From Acorus gramineus (Eukaryota > Streptophyta > Magnoliopsida > Acorales > Acoraceae), in NCBI GenBank assembly GCA_030737835.1, contig JAUJYN010000013.1, positions 3,957,354 through 4,021,353 on the forward strand: a stretch of DNA of 64,000 bases, written 5' to 3'. The notes below the pieces were generated by a model that did no database searches, was not told the DNA's origin, and worked only from the letters and a program-made list of their open reading frames with translations. The position numbers and the translations under genes are program-made. Below, one piece after another: positions 4,917-38,395 of the stretch. Each line of letters opens with the position of its first letter. Within the stretch, counting starts at the first letter, position 1.

Positions 4917-6989
4917 TCAAGAATTTTGGTCGCAAACTCGTCGCATCCCGATTTCATACACCAGCTTCTTGAATGTTGATGTCGACAAAGCTTTAGTAAA
5001 CAAATCTGCAAGATTGTCCTTTGACTGAATTTGTTGAACATCAATTTCATGTCTCTGCTGGAGCTCATGAGTGTAAAAGAATTTTGGAGAAATATACTTC
5101 GTTCTATCACCCTTGATATATCCCCCTTTGATTTGAGCAATGCATGCTGCATTGTCTTCATATATAGTTGTTGGAACATCTGTAATGAGAGATAGTCCGC
5201 ATGCAGTACGAATATGATGAACCAAAGACCTTATCCACACGCATTCCCGGCTTGCTTCGTGGAGTGCAAGAATCTCAGAGTGGTTAGAAGACGTGGCGAC
5301 CAAAGTCTGTTTCGTAGATCGCCAAGAGATTGCTGTGCCACCGCAAGTGAATACATAGCCTGTTTGTGAGCGAGCCTTGTGAGGATCTGAAAGATATCCT
5401 GAATCTGCATAACCCTTTAGTTGTGCACCATTATTGGAATCCTTTGCATAGAATAGACCCATGTCTGACGTTCCACGAAGATAACGAAAAATGTGCTTCA
5501 CACCATTCCAATGCCTTCGAGTTGGTGCAGAGCTAAATCTGGCCAATAAATTAACTGAAAATGCAATGTCAGGTCTAGTGCATTGGGCCAAATATAATAA
5601 GGCACCAATTGCACTAAGATATGGTACTTCAGGACCAAGAAGATTTTCAGTATTTTCTTTTGGATGAAAAGGGTCCTTTTTTGGGTCAAGTAACCTTACT
5701 ACCATTGGAGTACTTAATGGATGACATTTGTCCATATTAAAACGCTTCAGGATTTTTTCAACATATATTGTTTGATGAACAAGTATCCCATTTGAACTTT
5801 GCTCAATTTGCAAGCCGAGACAATATCTTGTTTTTCCAAGATCTTTCATTTCAAACTCCTTTTTCAGATATTCAGAAGCCTTTTTGAGCTCTTCAAGAGT
5901 CCCAATTAGATTAATATCATCAACATACACTGCAATAATGGCAGATCCGAGTCTTCTTTTCTTTATAAATACACAGGGGCATATTGGATCATTGACATAT
6001 CCTTCTTTTATTAAGTACTCACTAAGACGGTTATACCACATTCGTCCAGATTGCTTTAATCCATACAAGGATCGTCTTAGCTTGATTGAGTACATGTTTC
6101 GTGGTTTTGCTTCAGGCAATTTTAGTCCTTCAGGAACTTTCATATAAATGTCGGTATCTAATTTTCCATATAAATATGCAGTAACCACATCCATTAGCTG
6201 CATGTCAAGTCCTTCTGAGACTACAAGACTAATTAAATACCGAAATGTGATTGTGTCCATCACAGGAGAATATGTCTCTTCAAAATCTATCCCAGGTCTC
6301 TGCAGGAAACCCTGTGCCACAAGACGAGCTTTGTATCTAACAATCTCGTTTCTTTCATTTCGTTTTCTCGCAAACACCCATTTACATCCTACTGGTTTAA
6401 CACCTTCAGGGGTTAGGACTACTGGTCCAAATACTTGGTGTTTTGCAAGTGAATCCAATTCTGTTTGAATAGCAGCTTTCCATTGTGGCCAACAATTTTT
6501 TCGTCTGCATTCATCCACTGAACGTGGTTCTAAATCATTATCTGAAATGATTTCTGTAGCTACTGCAAATGAGAATATATCATCAACAAGCACTTGCTTT
6601 CGATCCCACAATATTTGTGAATTTGCATAATTTATGGAAATTTCTTCATTTCCATGTACTTGTTCTTCATGCACGGGCGTCACTTCAGGGACGTCAGTCT
6701 CTTCAGGGACTTGTGTCACTTCAGGGACTTCTTCCTCTGTAGGAGTTATTATTGTGGGTCTTTCAAGTGTTTCATACTCTTCTAGAGAATTATTCTTCAT
6801 TGTTTTTCTCCTTCGGGGAGCTGAATCTTTTGAGCCTATAGGTCTTCCACGCTTCAGGCGTGTTTTTGTTGATTCATTAGCCGGCATATTAACAGTTTTT
6901 CCTATTGGAACATTAATTCGAGCTGGAGTATTAGCAGCTGGAATATGTGATTTCATCACTTTTGCTGCATCATTGAATGCATCTGGCAA
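4917..6989 (-). pseudogene. Copia pol fragment: reverse transcriptase and RNase H
   Basis: An open frame of 690 codons without internal stops. It opens in the linker after integrase (a proline- and glutamate-rich stretch, residues 70-115). It then enters the copia reverse transcriptase at about residue 165, with GCKWVFARK (201-209), KARLVAQGF (220-228), the LMDVVTAYL aspartate (about 267) and the catalytic YVDD at 355-358. RNase H follows, with the YADSGY aspartate, a SRSQTGYVF-like block and SSNHSEILALHEA. The first ATG is internal to the polyprotein, so this is the 3' half of a broken pol and not a gene in its own right. Upstream sequence continues the polyprotein in other frames. Confidence 0.9.
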
Positions 6990-8521
6990 TTGATGCGCAA
7001 TTCTTTGAAGATGGTGATTCTTTGCACTTCAGTTTCACATTGATTAGTGCGAGGATCAAGATGAGACAAAGATGGAGTTTTCCATGTAAGTTCACGTCGT
7101 TCTTCTGGCGACGGATTTTCTCCCCCTAACGACGGGAATATTGTCTCATCAAAATGACAATCCGCAAATCGAGCGGTAAAAACATCCCCTGTCAATGGTT
7201 CAAGATATCTTATAATAGAGGAGAATCAAAGCCTACATAAATTCCCAATCGACGTTGAGGGCCCATTTTAGTTCGTTGTGTAGGGGCAATAGGAACTTGT
7301 ACAGCACAACCAAAAATTCGAAGATGTGAAATATTTGGTTGATGACCCAGTACGAGCTGTAAAGGGGAATATTGATGATAAGCAGTTGGCCGAAGGCGAA
7401 CTAATGCTGCTGCATGCAATATAGCGTGACCCCAAGCTGAAACGGGTAATTTTGTCCTCAAAAGCATAGGACGTGCAATTAGCTGAAGATGCTTAATAAA
7501 TGATTCAGCTAATCCATTTTGGGTGTGCACATGAGCAACAGGGTGTTCAACATCGATGCCATGCGACATACAATAGTCGTTAAAAGTTTTCGATGTGAAT
7601 TCACCAGCTCCATCAAGCGTATTGACTTTATAGGATAATCCGAAAATGAGACTGTAATCGGATTATCTGAGCAAGTAGTCTTGCAAATGCAGCATTCCGA
7701 GTGGATAATAGACAAACATGCGACCATCTAGCAGATGCGTCTATCAATACCATAAAATACTTGAATGGTCCACATGGGGGGTGGATTGGGCCACATATAT
7801 CCCCTTGGATTCTTTGCAAAAATGTTGGTGACTCAACATTGACTTTTGTAGGGGATGGTCTAACTATCAATTTTCCTTGTGAGCACGAAGTGCATTGATA
7901 GTGATTAGGTAAAAGAATCTTCTGGTTCTTTAACGAATGCCCAAATGAATTATCAATTATTCGACGCATCATTGTAGATCCTGGATGCCCGAGACGATCA
8001 TGCCAAAGTGTAAAAATATCTGAATCATAGAACTTCTGGTTCATTACAGCATATGATTCGATTGTTTTTATGGTTGTATAATACAACCCAGATGAGAAAG
8101 CATGAAGTTTCTCTAATACATGTTTTTGGCCTGAAACAATTGAAGTAATGCATAAATACTCCATATTGTTTTCATTGATAGTCTCAATATGATATCCATT
8201 AAGACGGATATCCTTAAAACTTAGCAGATTTCTTCTGGATCTTGCTGAATATAATGCATCATTAATACAAAATTTTGTACCTCCTGGTAATATTATATTT
8301 GCTCTTCCGGAGCCTTCAATTAATTTCGTAGTACCAGAAATGGTATTAACATTTGCATTGATTAATGTCAATGTCGAGAAATATTGTTTATTTCGTAGGA
8401 TCGTATGTGTTGTAGCGCTGTCTGCTAGACAAATGTCACCAACCATAGCCATTCTTGTAAAAAAAAAAATGAAATAAATAAGATAAATATAAAAATAAGA
8501 AAAATGGATTTTAGATAACAA
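6956..8521 (-). pseudogene. Copia pol fragment: protease, GAG-pre-integrase and integrase, frameshifted
   Basis: The frame 8521-7628 holds a protease with the active site in CLADSATTHTIL, the GAG-pre-integrase LWHDRLGHPGS, zinc-binding cysteines in CTSCSQGK, and the first integrase aspartate in GDICGPI. Reading then moves to another frame near 7640 (DYPIKSIRL), again near 7605, and runs to a stop at 7210 with the integrase glutamate region HVHTQNGLAE. A further shift near 7212 leads into 7195-6956 (TGDVFTARFADCHFDE), and another near 7000 joins the reverse transcriptase frame. These breaks mean no complete polyprotein can be made from this copy. Confidence 0.85.
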
Positions 8522-30065: not shown

Positions 30066-30083
30066 GGGGCTGTTTGGTTCAGC
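30066..30083 (+). repeat. Left terminal inverted repeat of Harbinger element
   Basis: GGGGCTGTTTGGTTCAGC, preceded by TAA. A related CTTGTTTGGTTGGG lies about 60 bases further in. Confidence 0.9.
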
Positions 30084-30633
30084 TTATAAACTGAGCTTAT
30101 TTTGCTTAAAGCTGAATTTCTGCTAAAAGCTTGTTTGGTTGGGTAACTTATAATCACTGAATCTTCTCCTCCTTCAGCCATTTATACCCCAAAAAATTAA
30201 GCTCCGTCGACGTTACTTATGTACTCGGATAACGCCTTCAGTGGTTCTTTTGTGGGTGTGTTTAGACGAAAATGCCCCTGACTGATTGCATTATTTACGT
30301 GAGGTATTTAACCCCTTTTTCAGTCGACTGTCCTCTCTCTCCTCCATTTTTTTCAACGAAGGCAGACCACGAACGGCAGCTCCACCGACCTATTTTCCTC
30401 CGAAAATCGACCCCAACCGGCGGCCTGTTCTGATGCGGTGCGCCGGAGACCCAAAATACTCTGAAATCTAGGGTTCAACGTTCTCATTCGACCACATCGT
30501 CATGTTCGTCGACTGATTCACACTCCGATCTGCTTCTTCCTCACGATTTGGGTCGGATACACACCGATCTCCGTCTCACCGTCTTCGGCGAACCATCCGA
30601 CGCGCGTCTCTGCTACACAGTCTCTTTGGCTCT

Positions 30634-31330
30634 CCTCCCCAACCATTCATCAAGGTAAAACCGAGCAGATCTCCTCGTGAGGTGCTTCTCTGCTTCAGAT
30701 ATATTCATTTTTGCTTATTGTGTGCTCGTGAGGTGCTTGTGTGCTCGTGAGGTGCTTGTGTGCTTCAGATCTATTCATTATACTGCTTAGGGTTTCTGCA
30801 GTGACGAATGTGTGTGGATCTGTCGTCTTGGCTTAAGTTTTTTTACCTATTGTGGGTAGATGAGGTTCAATGTAGGTGTTTGGTAGCTTTTTTGTGCAAT
30901 ACCTAATTTTATATAAGCTAATCTACCATAGATTATTTGCTCTTTTGGTTGGTGATGCCATGATTTGTTCAGATTTTTTAAAGTTTTGAGGAATCATAGG
31001 TTGAACTTACATAGTCTCTTTTAAACATCCTCCCCAACCAACCATCAAGGTAAAACCGAGCAGATCTCTGCGCAGCATGCTTCTGTGCTTCAGATCTATT
31101 GATTTTATACTGTTTAGGGTTTCTATAGTGACAAATGTGTGTGGATCGTCGGGTAGATTATGTTTTTTTTGACATGCAGGGTAGATCAGGTTCAATGTAG
31201 GTGATTGGTAGCTTTTGTATGCAATACCTAATTGTTGAAGTCGAATTGTCTATAGATTATGATCTTTATTGGTTGGTGATGCCCTGGTTTCTGAGGATTT
31301 TTTAAGTTTTTAGGTCTCATAGGTTGAACT
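30634..31330. repeat. Tandem duplication in the Harbinger 5' noncoding part
   Basis: A segment beginning near CCAACCATTCATCAAGGTAA (30643) recurs from CCAACCATCAAGGTAAAACC (31038). Both are followed by GAGCAGATCTC, GCTTCAGATCTATT, TTAGGGTTTCT, GTGTGTGGATC, GGTTCAATGTAGGTG, ATGCAATACCTAA-type words and a TAGGTTGAACTTA end. Unit length is about 375 bases. Each unit includes a GGTAAAACC that could be a 5' splice site. Confidence 0.8.
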
Positions 31331-31339
31331 TAAGCATAT

Positions 31340-32410
31340 GTGTTTTAAAAATGTTGCATTGTAATCAAAGTTACTATACAAAACTCGACTGGCTGCATCA
31401 ATGCTCTCAAAAAATTTCCATATGTTGCATGTTCATAAATTCTTTTAATTGTACATGATCCAGTAAGTCCAAATGTGGAAATTCCAGTAACGGCGCTAAA
31501 ATGAATCATCTAACCTTATTCACCTAAATTGAAAGCTAAAATAAATCATCTAACCTTATTCACCTCAATTTAAAACTTTATTAAATGATACCAAGGCAAA
31601 AAAACACCCTTTTTGTTAAATAAAAATGCAACAAAACAAATATCTCTTCAATTCAGAACTGTTTATCCTGAAGTATCAATTTATGCTTCACAATGTTAAC
31701 TCAGATTATAGATGGTTGTTATTATGGTTGTCCTCCAGTGTGCCTTATATTTAGCATTATAATGTTTAGCTCTAATCACCTGTGAAGAGGATTGAGTCAT
31801 GTGGTGCAGCAAAAGTGTCACATGGCCAGGGATGAAAATTTCAAAATTGCATGTGGACCACTTTCTCATGGGTTTGAAGTTGAAGAGGGGCGAGGAGAGA
31901 GAGGTTAGTTAGGACAATTTTTTATTAACTTTCGTGTCTAATTTTATTCATGTTGCATTGTTGTCTTTTTACCAGTTCAATGAGGTGGTATAGGGACAGT
32001 GAAACAAGACACTGGTTTAGGATCTTTGAAGAAGTTGTTCTTGTTTAGGAAGTCCAATACATTATTACATTATTACATTACGGTTTCCTTCAGACACTTT
32101 GGTTGAATTGAGTGCTCCTTGGGGAACACCCTTGTTATAATTTCTGCTTGTCTATTGCATGGAAGTTTTATTATTATTGGCAAGTGTTATACTCCCATGA
32201 AGCATGTTAGTATATGTGCATCCAACGAGAACCAATGAACAGCCACAAAAAAAAATGCACACACACAACTAAACCATCAAGATCTTATTCAACAAAGTTC
32301 ATTCTGCTTTTCACACCACTCCACAATGCAAAACCCATCTGATCATATTAACATGAACCAGTTTGTTAAATCCATTTGTATGACAAGTTGCTTCCCTCAT
32401 TGTTGTTGGT
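31340..32410. other. Harbinger noncoding leader or intron
   Basis: AT-rich sequence with no protein-like frame, between the duplicated leader and the start of the Myb-like gene. It is probably leader intron. Confidence 0.5.
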
Positions 32411-32415
32411 AGATA

Positions 32416-33393
32416 ATGGAAGGCAGCCGTGGGAGGGCTACATGGAGTCCGGATATGAAAAAAATGTTTATTGATCTATGCTTAGAACAAGTAACATTAG
32501 GGGGTCGGCCAGGAGCAAACCTGAAAACATCGGCATGGAAGAAGGTGAGAGAGGAATTTAATCAGAGGAACTTGGTCAACTACGAACAGAAACAATTCAA
32601 GAACTATTGGGACATGTTGAGGAAACAATGGAATACATGGAAGAGATTGATTTCCCTGACTGGCATAGGAGAGGTTGCCCCTGGCCAAACTGTCCAGATG
32701 GATCAGGAGAGATGGGATGAGCATATTACGGTAATCTATTTCATTATTTATAATTTCTACAGACTGAGATATATTTGATTAACCCCTCAATTATTTTAAA
32801 TACAGGCTTATCCTGATGCCAAACAGTTTAGATACAAACCCCTTCCTCATGCCGATGAGATGGAACAATTGTTTGGGGGAGTCACAGCCACGGGGGAACA
32901 CAGATTTAATTCAACTGATGATGATCACCTTCTTGATGATTTACACACCTGGCCATCCATGTCCCAGAACCCAACACCGAATCCCGAAGACCCAACTCCA
33001 CCACCGGGAAGGGAAGGGCAAGAAGATCCCAACCTTGATCATGTTCAGGCTGAGGCAAACTACGAGGACCGTATGTCTAACATACGACACAAACGGCCGT
33101 GTCCCAGTAGACGTAGAAGGAACAGTTCAGACACCTTTGTGGAGAAGCTTGATGGGGTGTTAGATAAGATTGTCAATTCCGCTACTAGTCAAGCACCATT
33201 CCATGTGTCTTCAGTACCCACCGTTGCAGATTGTTATGAATCCCTCCGACAGACCCCGGGGTTTGTGCCCGGTACCTCGCTCTACATAAACGCACTGAGG
33301 TACATCAACATTCCTGAGAATCGAGAGCTTTGGATGCTTGAGAAGGATCCAGAGTCCAGGGCTATGTTGGTGCGGGCTTCTGTCAAAGATTAG
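32416..33393 (+). CDS. Harbinger ORF1: Myb/SANT-like DNA-binding protein
   Basis: Two exons, 32416-32730 and 32806-33393, join in phase at GT-AG to give 300 residues. The N-terminal 100 residues form a Myb/SANT-like domain with the spaced tryptophans ATWSPDMKKMFIDLC (9-23), SAWKKVREEFN, NYWDMLRKQWNTWKRL. The continuation AYPDAKQFRYKPLPHADEME matches the region that follows this domain in plant Harbinger proteins. A basic stretch KRPCPSRRRR (about 201-210) is a probable nuclear localisation signal. The C terminus ends ELWMLEKDPESRAML, a common feature of these proteins. In this superfamily ORF1 binds the element ends and helps bring the transposase into the nucleus. The frame is uninterrupted. 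Confidence 0.92.
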
Positions 33394-33419
33394 AGTCTCC
33401 GGATTTCTCTTTGTCCCGA

Positions 33420-35340
33420 ATTAGCTATGTTATCTAAACAATGTCCTTAATATGTATGTTTTTTATGTTTTATGAACACAGTCTATGTATGTTCTATTAT
33501 TCAGTATGTAGGGTAGCTTTATGATGTGTTTATGTATTTGAACAATGTTCTATGGATGCTTTCTGTTTCATAGGTGGGTATTATTATGAATGTGTGGAAA
33601 CATGTGTTTGTTGGGTTTATGTATTATGCTCTATTAATGTGGATGCTTGTGTTTGTTTGGGTTAGGATATGATTAATGTGTGGAAACATCGGTTTGTTAG
33701 GTTGTATTATGAATGTGTATTATGTATTATGAATGTTTTTGCTTTTCTTGCATTTCTTACTTTTCTTTTACTTTATAGGAAGGCTGCATTCAGATCCATC
33801 ATTCACCAGTCTTTCTAGATTAAAAATTTAAGAACCCAAATAAATAGAATTTAGCAGATCCTATCAATATGTGTGTTCACCTCACTTATGATTCCATTAG
33901 GTCCATTCAATGTGATTACACCACATCTGAGGCATAATCACATCTTTTTGAATTTAAAAGCATAAATTATATGAACTATCATTGCTATTAAATGAAACAA
34001 ATGGATGAGCTAACATAAAAAATTGCTGTAATTAGGGTCTTGAAGCTCATCTCTCTTCATCATAGAACAATAGAAATAAATATAACAGGGTAAAAAAAAA
34101 AAAAAGCTCTTTCCAGAGTGAATGGTCAAGTGTGACTGAGATAGTAGTTAAAAAAAACATCAATTGCATGCTTGACCATTCACCAGTCATATTATATTTC
34201 AGCATTTCTTTAAGCCGACAAGCAAACCTCTGCTGATGCACATTGGACTACTCTATTTCTATTCAAACATTGACAAATTTGCTGTGATTTTGTTTTGGCT
34301 GAATAAATGGTGATTAGTCTTCAATCCACACATATCAAGAATTATAAGGGATCAAGTCAAATTGGGAATCTGAAATTTGTGCATTAAGGGTACATATGTG
34401 ATTGCTTAAATTTGTTTTAAGGACTAACCGCTTATGCAGTTATTCTCCTATGCATCGGCAAGAGTGACCAGTTTAGAAGGAAGTGTGTTCATTTTTTTGA
34501 AGGGGATGCATCTCAAAACTTCTTTATCACATAGATCAGATTCTTTATCATATTGAAACTCAGTGGAATTCTATAAACTGTGGATCATTTCTTCAATGCA
34601 ACTACAACTCATATTCTAGTTGTTATATTTCTCTTTCTTTTCTGCATATCTCTAAAGATGAGACTCAATTTATTTTTATTATGACAAAGACATAATAAAG
34701 ATCTCATTTATTTTTATTATGTTTCAATATGACAAAGACACAATTTATTGTTATTTATATGTCTCAAAAATAGAGAGAGCCATTGGACTATTGGAGGCTT
34801 AGCACATAATTGTGTGAATACACTCATGAAAATATGCAACAGCACATGTGGTTAGATGGTTCGCAGTCTGCCTTCCTGGTTCCATAAAGTTCATAACAAG
34901 CCTCCAGACATGATTCGAGCCATGGTACTCTGCGCAGGGACCCAACACCACCTTCACCACCTCATTTGTGTTTATAGCATCAGCTACAACAACCATCAAA
35001 CAAAAACAGACTAGGGGATTGACATAAGACATACCAAATGTTAGGAGCTTCTCTTCATAGGGAAGGGATAGGGAAGGGATATTAATTATGTTATTATGAT
35101 TATAGTGTGGGTGAAAGTGAGTGAGCTCCTTGGGGTCCCTTGCACCTTTACTAGAGTTGATAATATGTGGGACTCTTTCTGCTGATAATCACTAATGTTG
35201 ATTATAGTCAATTATATATTGATATAAGGGATGTACATGAAATATCTTTTAAGAGCATGTGTCATGTTGACTTTTGCTTGCCGTATTTGTTATATATATG
35301 CGAAGCTTATATTGTTTGTGAATGTATTCTTTAAGGTATT
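33420..35340. other. Harbinger internal spacer
   Basis: AT-rich sequence between ORF1 and the transposase. Bases 33580-33740 hold imperfect repeats of ATGTGTGGAAACAT and ATTATGAATGT. Bases 34120-34190 contain GAATGGTCAAG and CTTGACCATTC, a possible hairpin. One minus-strand frame (34799-35032) is listed separately. Confidence 0.5.
34799..35032 (-). CDS. Unrecognised 77-codon frame inside the Harbinger element
   Basis: A minus-strand frame opposite to the transposon genes. It has a hydrophobic start (NPLVCFCLMVVVADA), then a composition that looks coding-like, with VVKVVLGPCAEYHGSNHVWR and HLTTCAVAYFHECIHTIMC. The cysteines and histidines are suggestive but match no family I know. It may be one exon of a captured host gene or a chance frame, since the surroundings are AT-rich and this stretch is not. 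I see no promoter or further exons. Confidence 0.25.
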   Translation of the reverse strand: MSYVNPLVCFCLMVVVADAINTNEVVKVVLGPCAEYHGSNHVWRLVMNFMEPGRQTANHLTTCAVAYFHECIHTIMC

Positions 35341-35344
35341 ATGA

Positions 35345-36593
35345 ATGTGGACTTCACAGAATATCATCATCTTCCTCCTTATTGTGTATTACATACATCA
35401 CAAGTTTGGTCAACGTAGGGTGCCAAGAGCAGTGCGTGATGGGGTTCTAAGTGGCCATGATTATGTTGATGGAATACTTAGGGGCCATCCACACCCATGT
35501 CAAGAATTATTTCGCATGGATCAACATGTGTTCCGACGATTGGCAGATTTATTCAGGAGGGAAGGTTGGTTGGAGGACACAAGGAACATGTGGATCGAAG
35601 AACAGTTAGCTATATTCCTCACTATCATTGGACACAATTCAACAAACAGATATTGTCAGGACCGTTTTCAACATTCTGGGGAGACCATATCCCGTCAGTT
35701 TAGGGAGGTCCTATCGGCATGCTTGAAATTAAGCAAGTTGATTATTCATCCACCCGATTTGTCAAAGACACCCATCCAAATATTGAACAATCATCGATTT
35801 TACCCAGCGTTCAAGGTAATAAACATTATCCTTTCTTGAATGTACTTCAACTGCGTATCCCTCATATTCTAGTTTGGAAGTTTAATCATATGGGTAATTA
35901 AACATTGATATGTAGGATTGTGTTGGAGCTATAGATGGAACTCTTGTCCACGCGATCATAGAGACAGAGAGTCAAGTTCCATTCCGGGGGCGCAAGGGGG
36001 AATGCATGCAGAATGTTCTTGCTATCTGCTCCTTCGACATGCAGTTCACCTATGCTGAGGCTGGTTGGGAAGGAACGGCGCACGATTCACGTATCCTTTC
36101 CGAATGCATCCGAGACCCTTCAAGGAATTTTCCAATGCCACCTCCAGGAAAATATTATGTAGCTGACGCAGGGTATAGCAACAATAGGGGATTCCTCACA
36201 CCATTTCGGAACGTGAGGTATTGGTTGGGTGATTATAGGGGCAGATCAGCACCACAAAATAAGGAGGAGCTATTCAATTTTTATCACTCTTCATTGCGCA
36301 ATGTCATAGAACGCACTTTTGGAGTGTGGAAAGCGCGATTCCCCATACTGAAGAAGATGGCATCTTATTCTTTTGACATGCAGGTACGGATCGTCATTGC
36401 AACAATGGCTATCCATAATTATATTCGAAGGGAAAATCAGGCTGATACCCTCTTTCGCGAATTCGAAAACACGAATACAGATGAGGACCGTAGCGCTGAA
36501 ACACTATATGCCCCATTCCAACCGGAGAGAGATCAGATAGAAATGAATAGAACCCGGGATCAGATAGCCGATCTACTAATGGCTAGGCGCTAG
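35345..36593 (+). CDS. PIF/Harbinger DDE transposase (HARBI1-like nuclease)
   Basis: Two exons, 35345-35815 and 35916-36593, join in phase at GT-AG to give 382 residues. Residues 60-140 form the helical region before the nuclease (FRMDQHVFRRLADLF, SGETISRQFREVL). The DDE-4 nuclease keeps all three acidic residues: D164 in GAIDGTLV, D241 in YVADAGYS and E289 in RNVIERTFGVWK, with 47 residues between the last two as usual for this superfamily. The end (NRTRDQIADLLMARR) is intact. Its length fits HARBI1-like proteins, and the lack of stops suggests recent or continuing function. It would cut the element ends together with the ORF1 protein. ATG 35345 is taken as the start because it is the first in this frame. 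Confidence 0.93.
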
Positions 36594-36690
36594 GGGTTTT
36601 TTTTTTCTTGTATCCACGCCCGTGTTTATGCCCTGTTGTAATATTAGTTCTTGTAACAATCCTGTATAATATTGTAATATTTTTGATAGC

Positions 36691-37122
36691 ATGAAGAACG
36701 AAAATTCAGAGATTGAGTGCGCCTGTGGACGAGGACCGATGGTCCTCTTGATGGCTAGGACTTCCAAGAACTATGGCCGATGGTTTTTGAGGTGCCCAGC
36801 AAGATTGGTAAGTTTTTCAACAATGTAAACCTCTTGAATTGCTAATTATGTATTTAAACATGCTTGTGTTGTTTAATGTGTGATATACTAATGTTGTCAT
36901 TCATGTAATCAGGAACACCCACAATGCTTTGTGTGGGTTGATGAAGTGCGTCGGGCGCACGGACCAGAGGCTTACCAGGTGCCAGCTCAGGAGAAGGTTG
37001 AGAAGGCCGTCGCAGTTCAACGCCCTATAGGGATACTCATCTTTGGATGTTGTTCATGCATATGTATCATATTGATGGTGTTTGTGATCTTTTTTTTGCT
37101 TGTACTCTTGGCCATCAAATGA
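36691..37122 (+). CDS. GRF zinc-finger protein with C-terminal membrane segment, third gene of the Harbinger element
   Basis: Two exons, 36691-36807 and 36913-37122, join in phase at GT-AG to give 108 residues, starting 97 bases after the transposase stop. Residues 10-50 are a GRF-type zinc finger: CACG, then TSKNYGRWFLRCP, then CFVWVDE, with the cysteines at 10, 12, 35 and 44 and the conserved N-x-G-R and W-x-D. Residues 78-107 are a strongly hydrophobic segment (ILIFGCCSCICIILMVFVIF and on), so the protein is probably tail-anchored. Small proteins of this layout are numerous in plants (the At4g04775-like group), and their function is unknown. Known GRF fingers bind DNA in repair proteins. 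Its place inside the terminal repeats, on the same strand as the transposase, suggests it moves with the element. Confidence 0.85.
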
Positions 37123-37861
37123 CTGTAGAAGTTGGATTATGAAACCAGCACTGTAATGTAAATATTTACTGATCTTGGACTTTGTCTTTTATTTGAGAAT
37201 GTTGTAACATACTCATGTGGCTATCTATTGTAGAATGAAAAACATATGTAGCATGAGTATTACCTTTTGATGGTTTAGAAATTTGATGATCTACAGGTTT
37301 TTATTTCTGAATCATATAGTGGCAATATTATTCTCTTGTATTTATAATGTGTAGCATGACAGGATATGCCACTTTGTATCAGGTTCTAGGTGAGAGTTGT
37401 AAAAAAAATTATTCAGGTATGTGATTATAAGGGATCATTTCAAAATTGGTAAATATAGATTGCATATTTACAACCCTTCTTAAAAGTCATTATGTCTTGA
37501 GTTAATTTTTTGTAAATCTATATAAGCTTGTATAGGGTTCTAATAAGTAATGAATCTGTAGTATCTAGCCATTTATTAATTAGACATTTAATAAATTGAT
37601 TTTTTTTAATAAAAGGAAAAATAAGCAAGTTTTCAACCAAACACCAAATTACATTCAGCACTTATTAAATGGACCAAAACACCCTTGTCATAAGCTCTAC
37701 TCTTCAGTACTGAACCAAACACACTTATTGCAATAAGTGCTTATAATTTCCGCTGAACCAAACAGTTTTTCTTCTGAACTGATTAAAACTTATCAGAACT
37801 TATACAATCTGCACTTATAAATCAGGACTTAAAATCAGCTATCCGCTGAACCAAACGGCCC
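37123..37861 (+). other. Harbinger 3' noncoding end with subterminal repeats
   Basis: No gene. The last 150 bases repeat CTGAACCAAAC three times (near 37713, 37753 and at the end, 37845). These are copies of the terminal word and candidate binding sites for the ORF1 protein. Paired words such as AAGTGCTTAT and ATAAGTGC could form hairpins. Confidence 0.65.
37844..37861 (-). repeat. Right terminal inverted repeat of Harbinger element
   Basis: CGCTGAACCAAACGGCCC, followed by TAA. Its reverse complement matches the left end with a one-base gap and one mismatch. Confidence 0.9.
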
Positions 37862-38104
37862 TAAGAGGCTGCATTTAAGACTATACAAAAAATCAAGGGT
37901 CCGTTTGGAAACACAGATTGAAAAGTAGCTTTTGGAATAAAGCTGCTTTTTAAGATGAATTTAACTTTTGACCTTTATGGGGATGCTTTTCTTTTAATCC
38001 AGGAATCCAGGACCCCAAGTATTAACAAAGCTTTTTTCCTCCGGGTCTTTCTAAAAACAAATTGAAAATGATGTCGGTGTGCAGTTTCACCCTTTTTTTT
38101 TTTA

Positions 38105-38395
38105 GGGTTTTTTAGTTTTTAGTCCCTGTAAACATATCTATTTAGGGATCGATCCCTTACTTCTTCATATTTTGATTTTAGTCCCTAGATTTAAAGGATA
38201 TGTTCATTTATAGTCCCTCTTAGAGACTAAAAACAAAACCAAATAATTTAGGGATAGGTCCCTCCCAGGGACTAAAAAGGAACATATCCTTTAAATTTAG
38301 GGACTAAAACCAAAATATAAAGAATTGAGGGATCGATCACTAAATCCTATGGTTTATGGGGACTTAAAAATAAGAATCCCTTTTTTTTTAAGTAT
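38105..38395. mobile_element. Foldback MITE, copy 1
   Basis: The left arm (about 38120-38212) and right arm (about 38278-38375) are inverted copies. Pairs include AAAGGATATGTTC with GAACATATCCTTT, AGGGATCGATCC with GGGATCGATCACT, and TTTTAGTCCCTAGATTT with AAATTTAGGGACTAAAA. The whole element can fold into one long hairpin. It has no coding capacity. Confidence 0.8.

Follow-up and report, generated by a model that had tools for sequence, protein, structure and literature searches.

A PIF/Harbinger element of Acorus gramineus with a third gene, for a GRF finger protein with a hydrophobic C-terminal tail

Harbinger transposition requires two proteins of the element, ORF1 and the transposase, as stated in the available excerpts of PMC2836001. 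In Medicago, the core elements measure 3,160–5,965 bp, with the transposase present in them and orf1 in most (PMC2213677 Table 1, in the excerpts available). We describe here an element in a 64-kb stretch of DNA of Acorus gramineus (the whole stretch analysed is called the window). Like the MtMaster/MtPH-M elements of Medicago, as they appear in the same excerpts (PMC2213677), it has a TAA-type 3-bp duplication, ends bearing GTTTGG and a Myb-like gene ahead of a DDE transposase gene with one intron. Unlike them, it contains a third gene, with a GRF finger, and it is longer. Its gene order fits MtPH-M, and its ends are closer to those of MtPH-A6 (PMC2213677, same excerpts). In the open-licence PMC literature, no paper pairing Harbinger with GRF was found among the matches listed, and a term search of the accessible part of PMC9179366 returned none of the words third, zinc finger or transmembrane.

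The features of the element are collected in Table 1. Several of them are characteristic of PIF/Harbinger transposons: the 3-bp TAA/TWA target duplication together with GTTTGG-type terminal inverted repeats, a DDE_Tnp_4 transposase that retains D, D and E, and a second protein that is Myb/SANT-like (E 2e-19). In a scripted comparison of the ends, bases 2–18 of the element match bases 7796–7780 at 16 of 17 positions, the left end carrying one extra G. Allowing at most one mismatch, the 64-kb window has four copies of the motif GTTTGGTTCAGC versus 0.26 expected, and all four are within the element, at most 160 bases from an end. The end motif GTTTGGTTCAG has two further copies just within the right end (window 37709–37763), which are possible, putative binding sites for the transposase. 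The left part of the element contains a diverged direct duplication (window 30614–31352), in which bases 549–646 and 688–963 of the element match bases 943–1041 and 1013–1287 at about 79–82%.

Table 1. Coordinates of the element and its parts in the window
Feature	Position	Strand	Basis and remarks
PIF/Harbinger element	30066-37861	+	7,796 bp; ends, TAA duplications, gene content
Target-site duplication, left: TAA	30063-30065	.	identical to bases at 37862-37864
Terminal inverted repeat, left	30066-30083	+	16/17 bases match right end
Myb-like partner gene	32416-33393 (exons 32416-32731 + 32807-33393)	+	open across predicted intron; Myb_DNA-bind_3
DDE transposase gene	35345-36593 (exons 35345-35815 + 35916-36593)	+	382 residues, open across predicted intron; DDE_Tnp_4
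GRF gene, exon 1	36691-36807	+	Pfam, open frame; GC of joined exons 48%
GRF gene, predicted intron	36808-36912	+	phase 0, GTAAGT...ATCAG, 28% GC
GRF gene, exon 2: remaining finger, linker, hydrophobic tail	36913-37122	+	53/69 residues identical to A. calamus P0001 (see text)
Terminal inverted repeat, right	37845-37861	-	sequence, end alignment
Target-site duplication, right: TAA	37862-37864	.	sequence

The products of the two usual genes score above the Pfam cut-offs, with Myb_DNA-bind_3 at E 2e-19 and, in the exon-2 part of the transposase, DDE_Tnp_4 at E 8e-21. The transposase was aligned with 46 of the 120 listed matches (2,206 reported), which with the window's own sequence gives 47 rows (alignment A1). 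Residues D164, D241 and E289 fall in conserved columns of A1, and we take them to be the D, D and E of the DDE catalytic type. Among the best 120 of the 2,206 matches, the three nearest transposases are all from Acorus gramineus, with identities of 98, 75 and 72% in A1 (92, 75 and 67% by BLASTP, over 79–85% of the query). At the N-terminus of the transposase, about 13 residues form a hydrophobic stretch (window 35363–35401); by a simple hydropathy rule, a similar stretch is present in 18 of the 42 transposases with enough N-terminal sequence among the 47 rows of A1, the window's own included.

The third gene begins 97 bases past the stop codon of the transposase (which ends at 36593), on the same strand and within the ends of the element. 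As predicted from the sequence, its two exons would be joined in phase 0 to encode 108 residues. The proposed acceptor is supported, since the closest protein of Acorus calamus becomes alignable exactly at the next residue. In the frame of the GRF gene, a stop occurs just 5′ of the first ATG and, thus, the gene cannot be read as a continuation of the transposase. The GC content of the GRF exons (48%) is similar to that of the other genes of the element (45% in the transposase coding sequence and 48% in the Myb coding sequence), whereas its own intron and the sequence downstream are 28% GC and the stretch separating it from the transposase is 32%. A chance reading frame is ruled out by the Pfam score above the cut-off, this GC contrast and the splice sites.

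The product matches Zn_ribbon_GRF with E 8e-7 and 29.5 bits (gathering cut-off 25.9), residues 9–50 covering positions 2–44 of the 45 of the profile. With this score and its four zinc-ligand cysteines, the domain is a GRF zinc finger (PF06839). Cysteines C10, C12, C35 and C44 are in kept columns of an alignment with plant GRF proteins (A4, see below), where C10, C35 and C44 are invariant and C12 nearly so. The most hydrophobic stretch of 19 residues is 89–107 (mean hydropathy 3.6), after which only one residue follows. Such a lone hydrophobic segment at the extreme C-terminus is, in its sequence, that of a tail anchor, and the protein would probably insert into a membrane with the finger facing the cytosol or the nucleoplasm. 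The earlier note had described a two-exon gene inside the terminal repeats, on the strand of the transposase, with a complete GRF finger and a C-terminal hydrophobic anchor; the exons, the gap, the length of the product, the Pfam score and the hydropathy agree with that description on each point. Of its broader proposal, a Harbinger element with a third gene, what stands is a complete GRF-plus-tail gene in an otherwise ordinary two-gene element. Orf78 was rejected as a Pfam identity for the protein (E 0.007, below the cut-off, residues 70–104 only).

A search of the PDB with the single window protein returned no GRF chain, the sole return being an antibody chain (E 0.16). The profile of A4 retrieves NEIL3 (E 3e-12) and ZCCHC4 (E 1e-4) through their GRF domains and, weakly, that of chain 5u6z (E 0.007), a DNA-AP lyase by its listing, which we take to be APE2. 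By this profile match, their GRF domains belong to the same finger family as that of the window protein. There, however, the finger is part of large enzymes without a membrane tail. GRF domains bind single-stranded nucleic acid. A search of plasmid DNA gave no match, and neither the transposase alignment nor the GRF protein led to a confirmed relative in scans of viral contigs.

Candidate relatives of the GRF product among annotated proteins were chosen by exact shared words and a length of 0.55 to 1.75 times that of the query (60–189 residues). Of the five candidates, only QJS10_CPA06g01343 of Acorus calamus (P0001) matched at E < 1e-3. The two proteins align without gaps from the residue right after the proposed acceptor to the C-terminal end, with 53 of 69 residues identical (77%), distributed as 10/12 in the finger half, 12/24 in the linker and 31/33 in the tail. 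In this one pair of Acorus sequences, the tail is the best-kept part, which suggests that it is under constraint; the identities in the pair are distributed as would be expected if finger and tail were the parts for which the protein is kept. The annotated first exon of P0001 lacks the GRF half, Pfam returns no domain in P0001 and nothing convincing in the window was matched by its N-terminal part. Next to so clear a GRF-tail exon, the first exon may come from an incorrect gene model, or an exon may have become attached to sequence of another origin. P0001 could be a host gene.

With just under an even chance, in our estimate, the third gene is a long-resident accessory gene, the predicted tail-anchored GRF product of which would tether transposon DNA at a membrane. 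The protein would insert by its C-terminal tail into an internal membrane, for example the nuclear envelope. Facing the cytosol or nucleoplasm, the finger would keep the transposase complex, or transposon DNA that is broken or single-stranded, at that membrane, and the tether would act in excision or integration of the transposon. Both the binding of DNA by the protein and its role in either step are conjectural parts of the proposal. Residence of the gene in the element family, which we infer, is favoured because of the same-strand site just past the transposase, the intact splice sites, the GC contrast and the constrained-looking tail, and because no near-identical donor was found among the annotated proteins of 60–189 residues with shared words. 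The GRF score above the Pfam cut-off, the hydrophobic tail, the three nearest transposases being from Acorus as well and the finger family matching NEIL3 also count on this side. Against it count the first exon of P0001 without the GRF half and the failure of the window protein alone to find a GRF chain in the PDB.

Proteins of similar architecture do occur in other plants. A profile search gave 18 proteins at E ≤ 1 among 7,992 scored candidates; the profile held seven artificial GRF rows and the tail of the window protein itself, and the search was therefore biased toward tails. By a simple hydropathy rule, a C-terminal hydrophobic segment is present in 13 of the 17 retrieved proteins other than P0001 (P0138, with a finger cut short, is included), a count that is not a natural frequency because the search favoured tails. 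Alignment A4 takes 14 of the 18 matches; the four omitted are P0001, the short P0138, and P0125 and P0127, which nearly duplicate P0123. These 14 natural proteins are 20–29% identical to the window protein. The small plant proteins share with it the N-terminal GRF finger and the hydrophobic C-terminal tail, but 11 of the 13 with tails are longer than 125 residues, versus 108, and none was seen to be connected with a transposon. The GRF-plus-tail architecture is thus not itself new, being present in several plant families. It had been suggested that small plant genes like At4g04775 derive in part from such elements; the identities in A4 do not bear this out, and no direction of descent is seen.

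The occurrence of such proteins in other plants makes a host donor possible. A host GRF-plus-tail gene could have been picked up into the interval from the transposase to the right end and be carried as a passenger with no part in transposition (Pack-type capture), a reading that we consider plausible, at rather better than one chance in three. It draws, besides the spread of the architecture over several plant families, on the sole A. calamus relative being an annotated gene and on the length of the element, 7.8 kb versus 3.2–6.0 kb for the Medicago core elements (PMC2213677 Table 1, in the excerpts available). On the other hand, with the closest annotated protein found only 77% identical, such a capture must be old or have come from an unannotated donor, and the frame, the splice sites and the tail of the GRF gene are all intact despite that distance. 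Long residence is favoured over passive capture, although the odds are close.

The ends of the element are one base unequal in length and extra end-like motifs occur in the right sub-terminal region, so the boundaries could be misjudged. The GRF gene would then be a separate host gene or a nested insertion and the apparent element two adjoining pieces of sequence, which is improbable, since TAA duplications flank the outermost ends. A strict scan around the gene (36500–36720 against 37090–37700) gave no 12-base end repeat with a 3–9 base duplication; its weight is small because of that strictness and because one of 20 shuffles did give one. The lone insertion with its own target duplication that the earlier note had envisaged was accordingly not found within this limited scan, and a nested transposon bearing the GRF gene is considered a weak candidate.

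If the element keeps a membrane-anchored DNA-binding third protein, this would point to the site in the cell where transposition takes place and would suggest one route for the spread of small GRF genes in plants. A wider proposal, that a lineage of plant Harbinger transposons is built on three genes and uses a tail-anchored GRF protein to moor the intermediates of transposition at the nuclear membrane, so that a DNA transposon of the cut-and-paste kind would code for its own membrane tether, is in our view unlikely, at about one chance in four.

The neighbourhood of the element contains other repeats. About 240 bases to its right, an inverted repeat of 124 bases (81% complementary, with a 30-base loop; window 38104–38381) could represent a small MITE-like element. 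The minus strand at 4917–8521 contains fragments of a Copia-type retrotransposon, with RVT_2 in 4917–6989 and gag_pre-integrs and Pol_BBD in 7628–8521.
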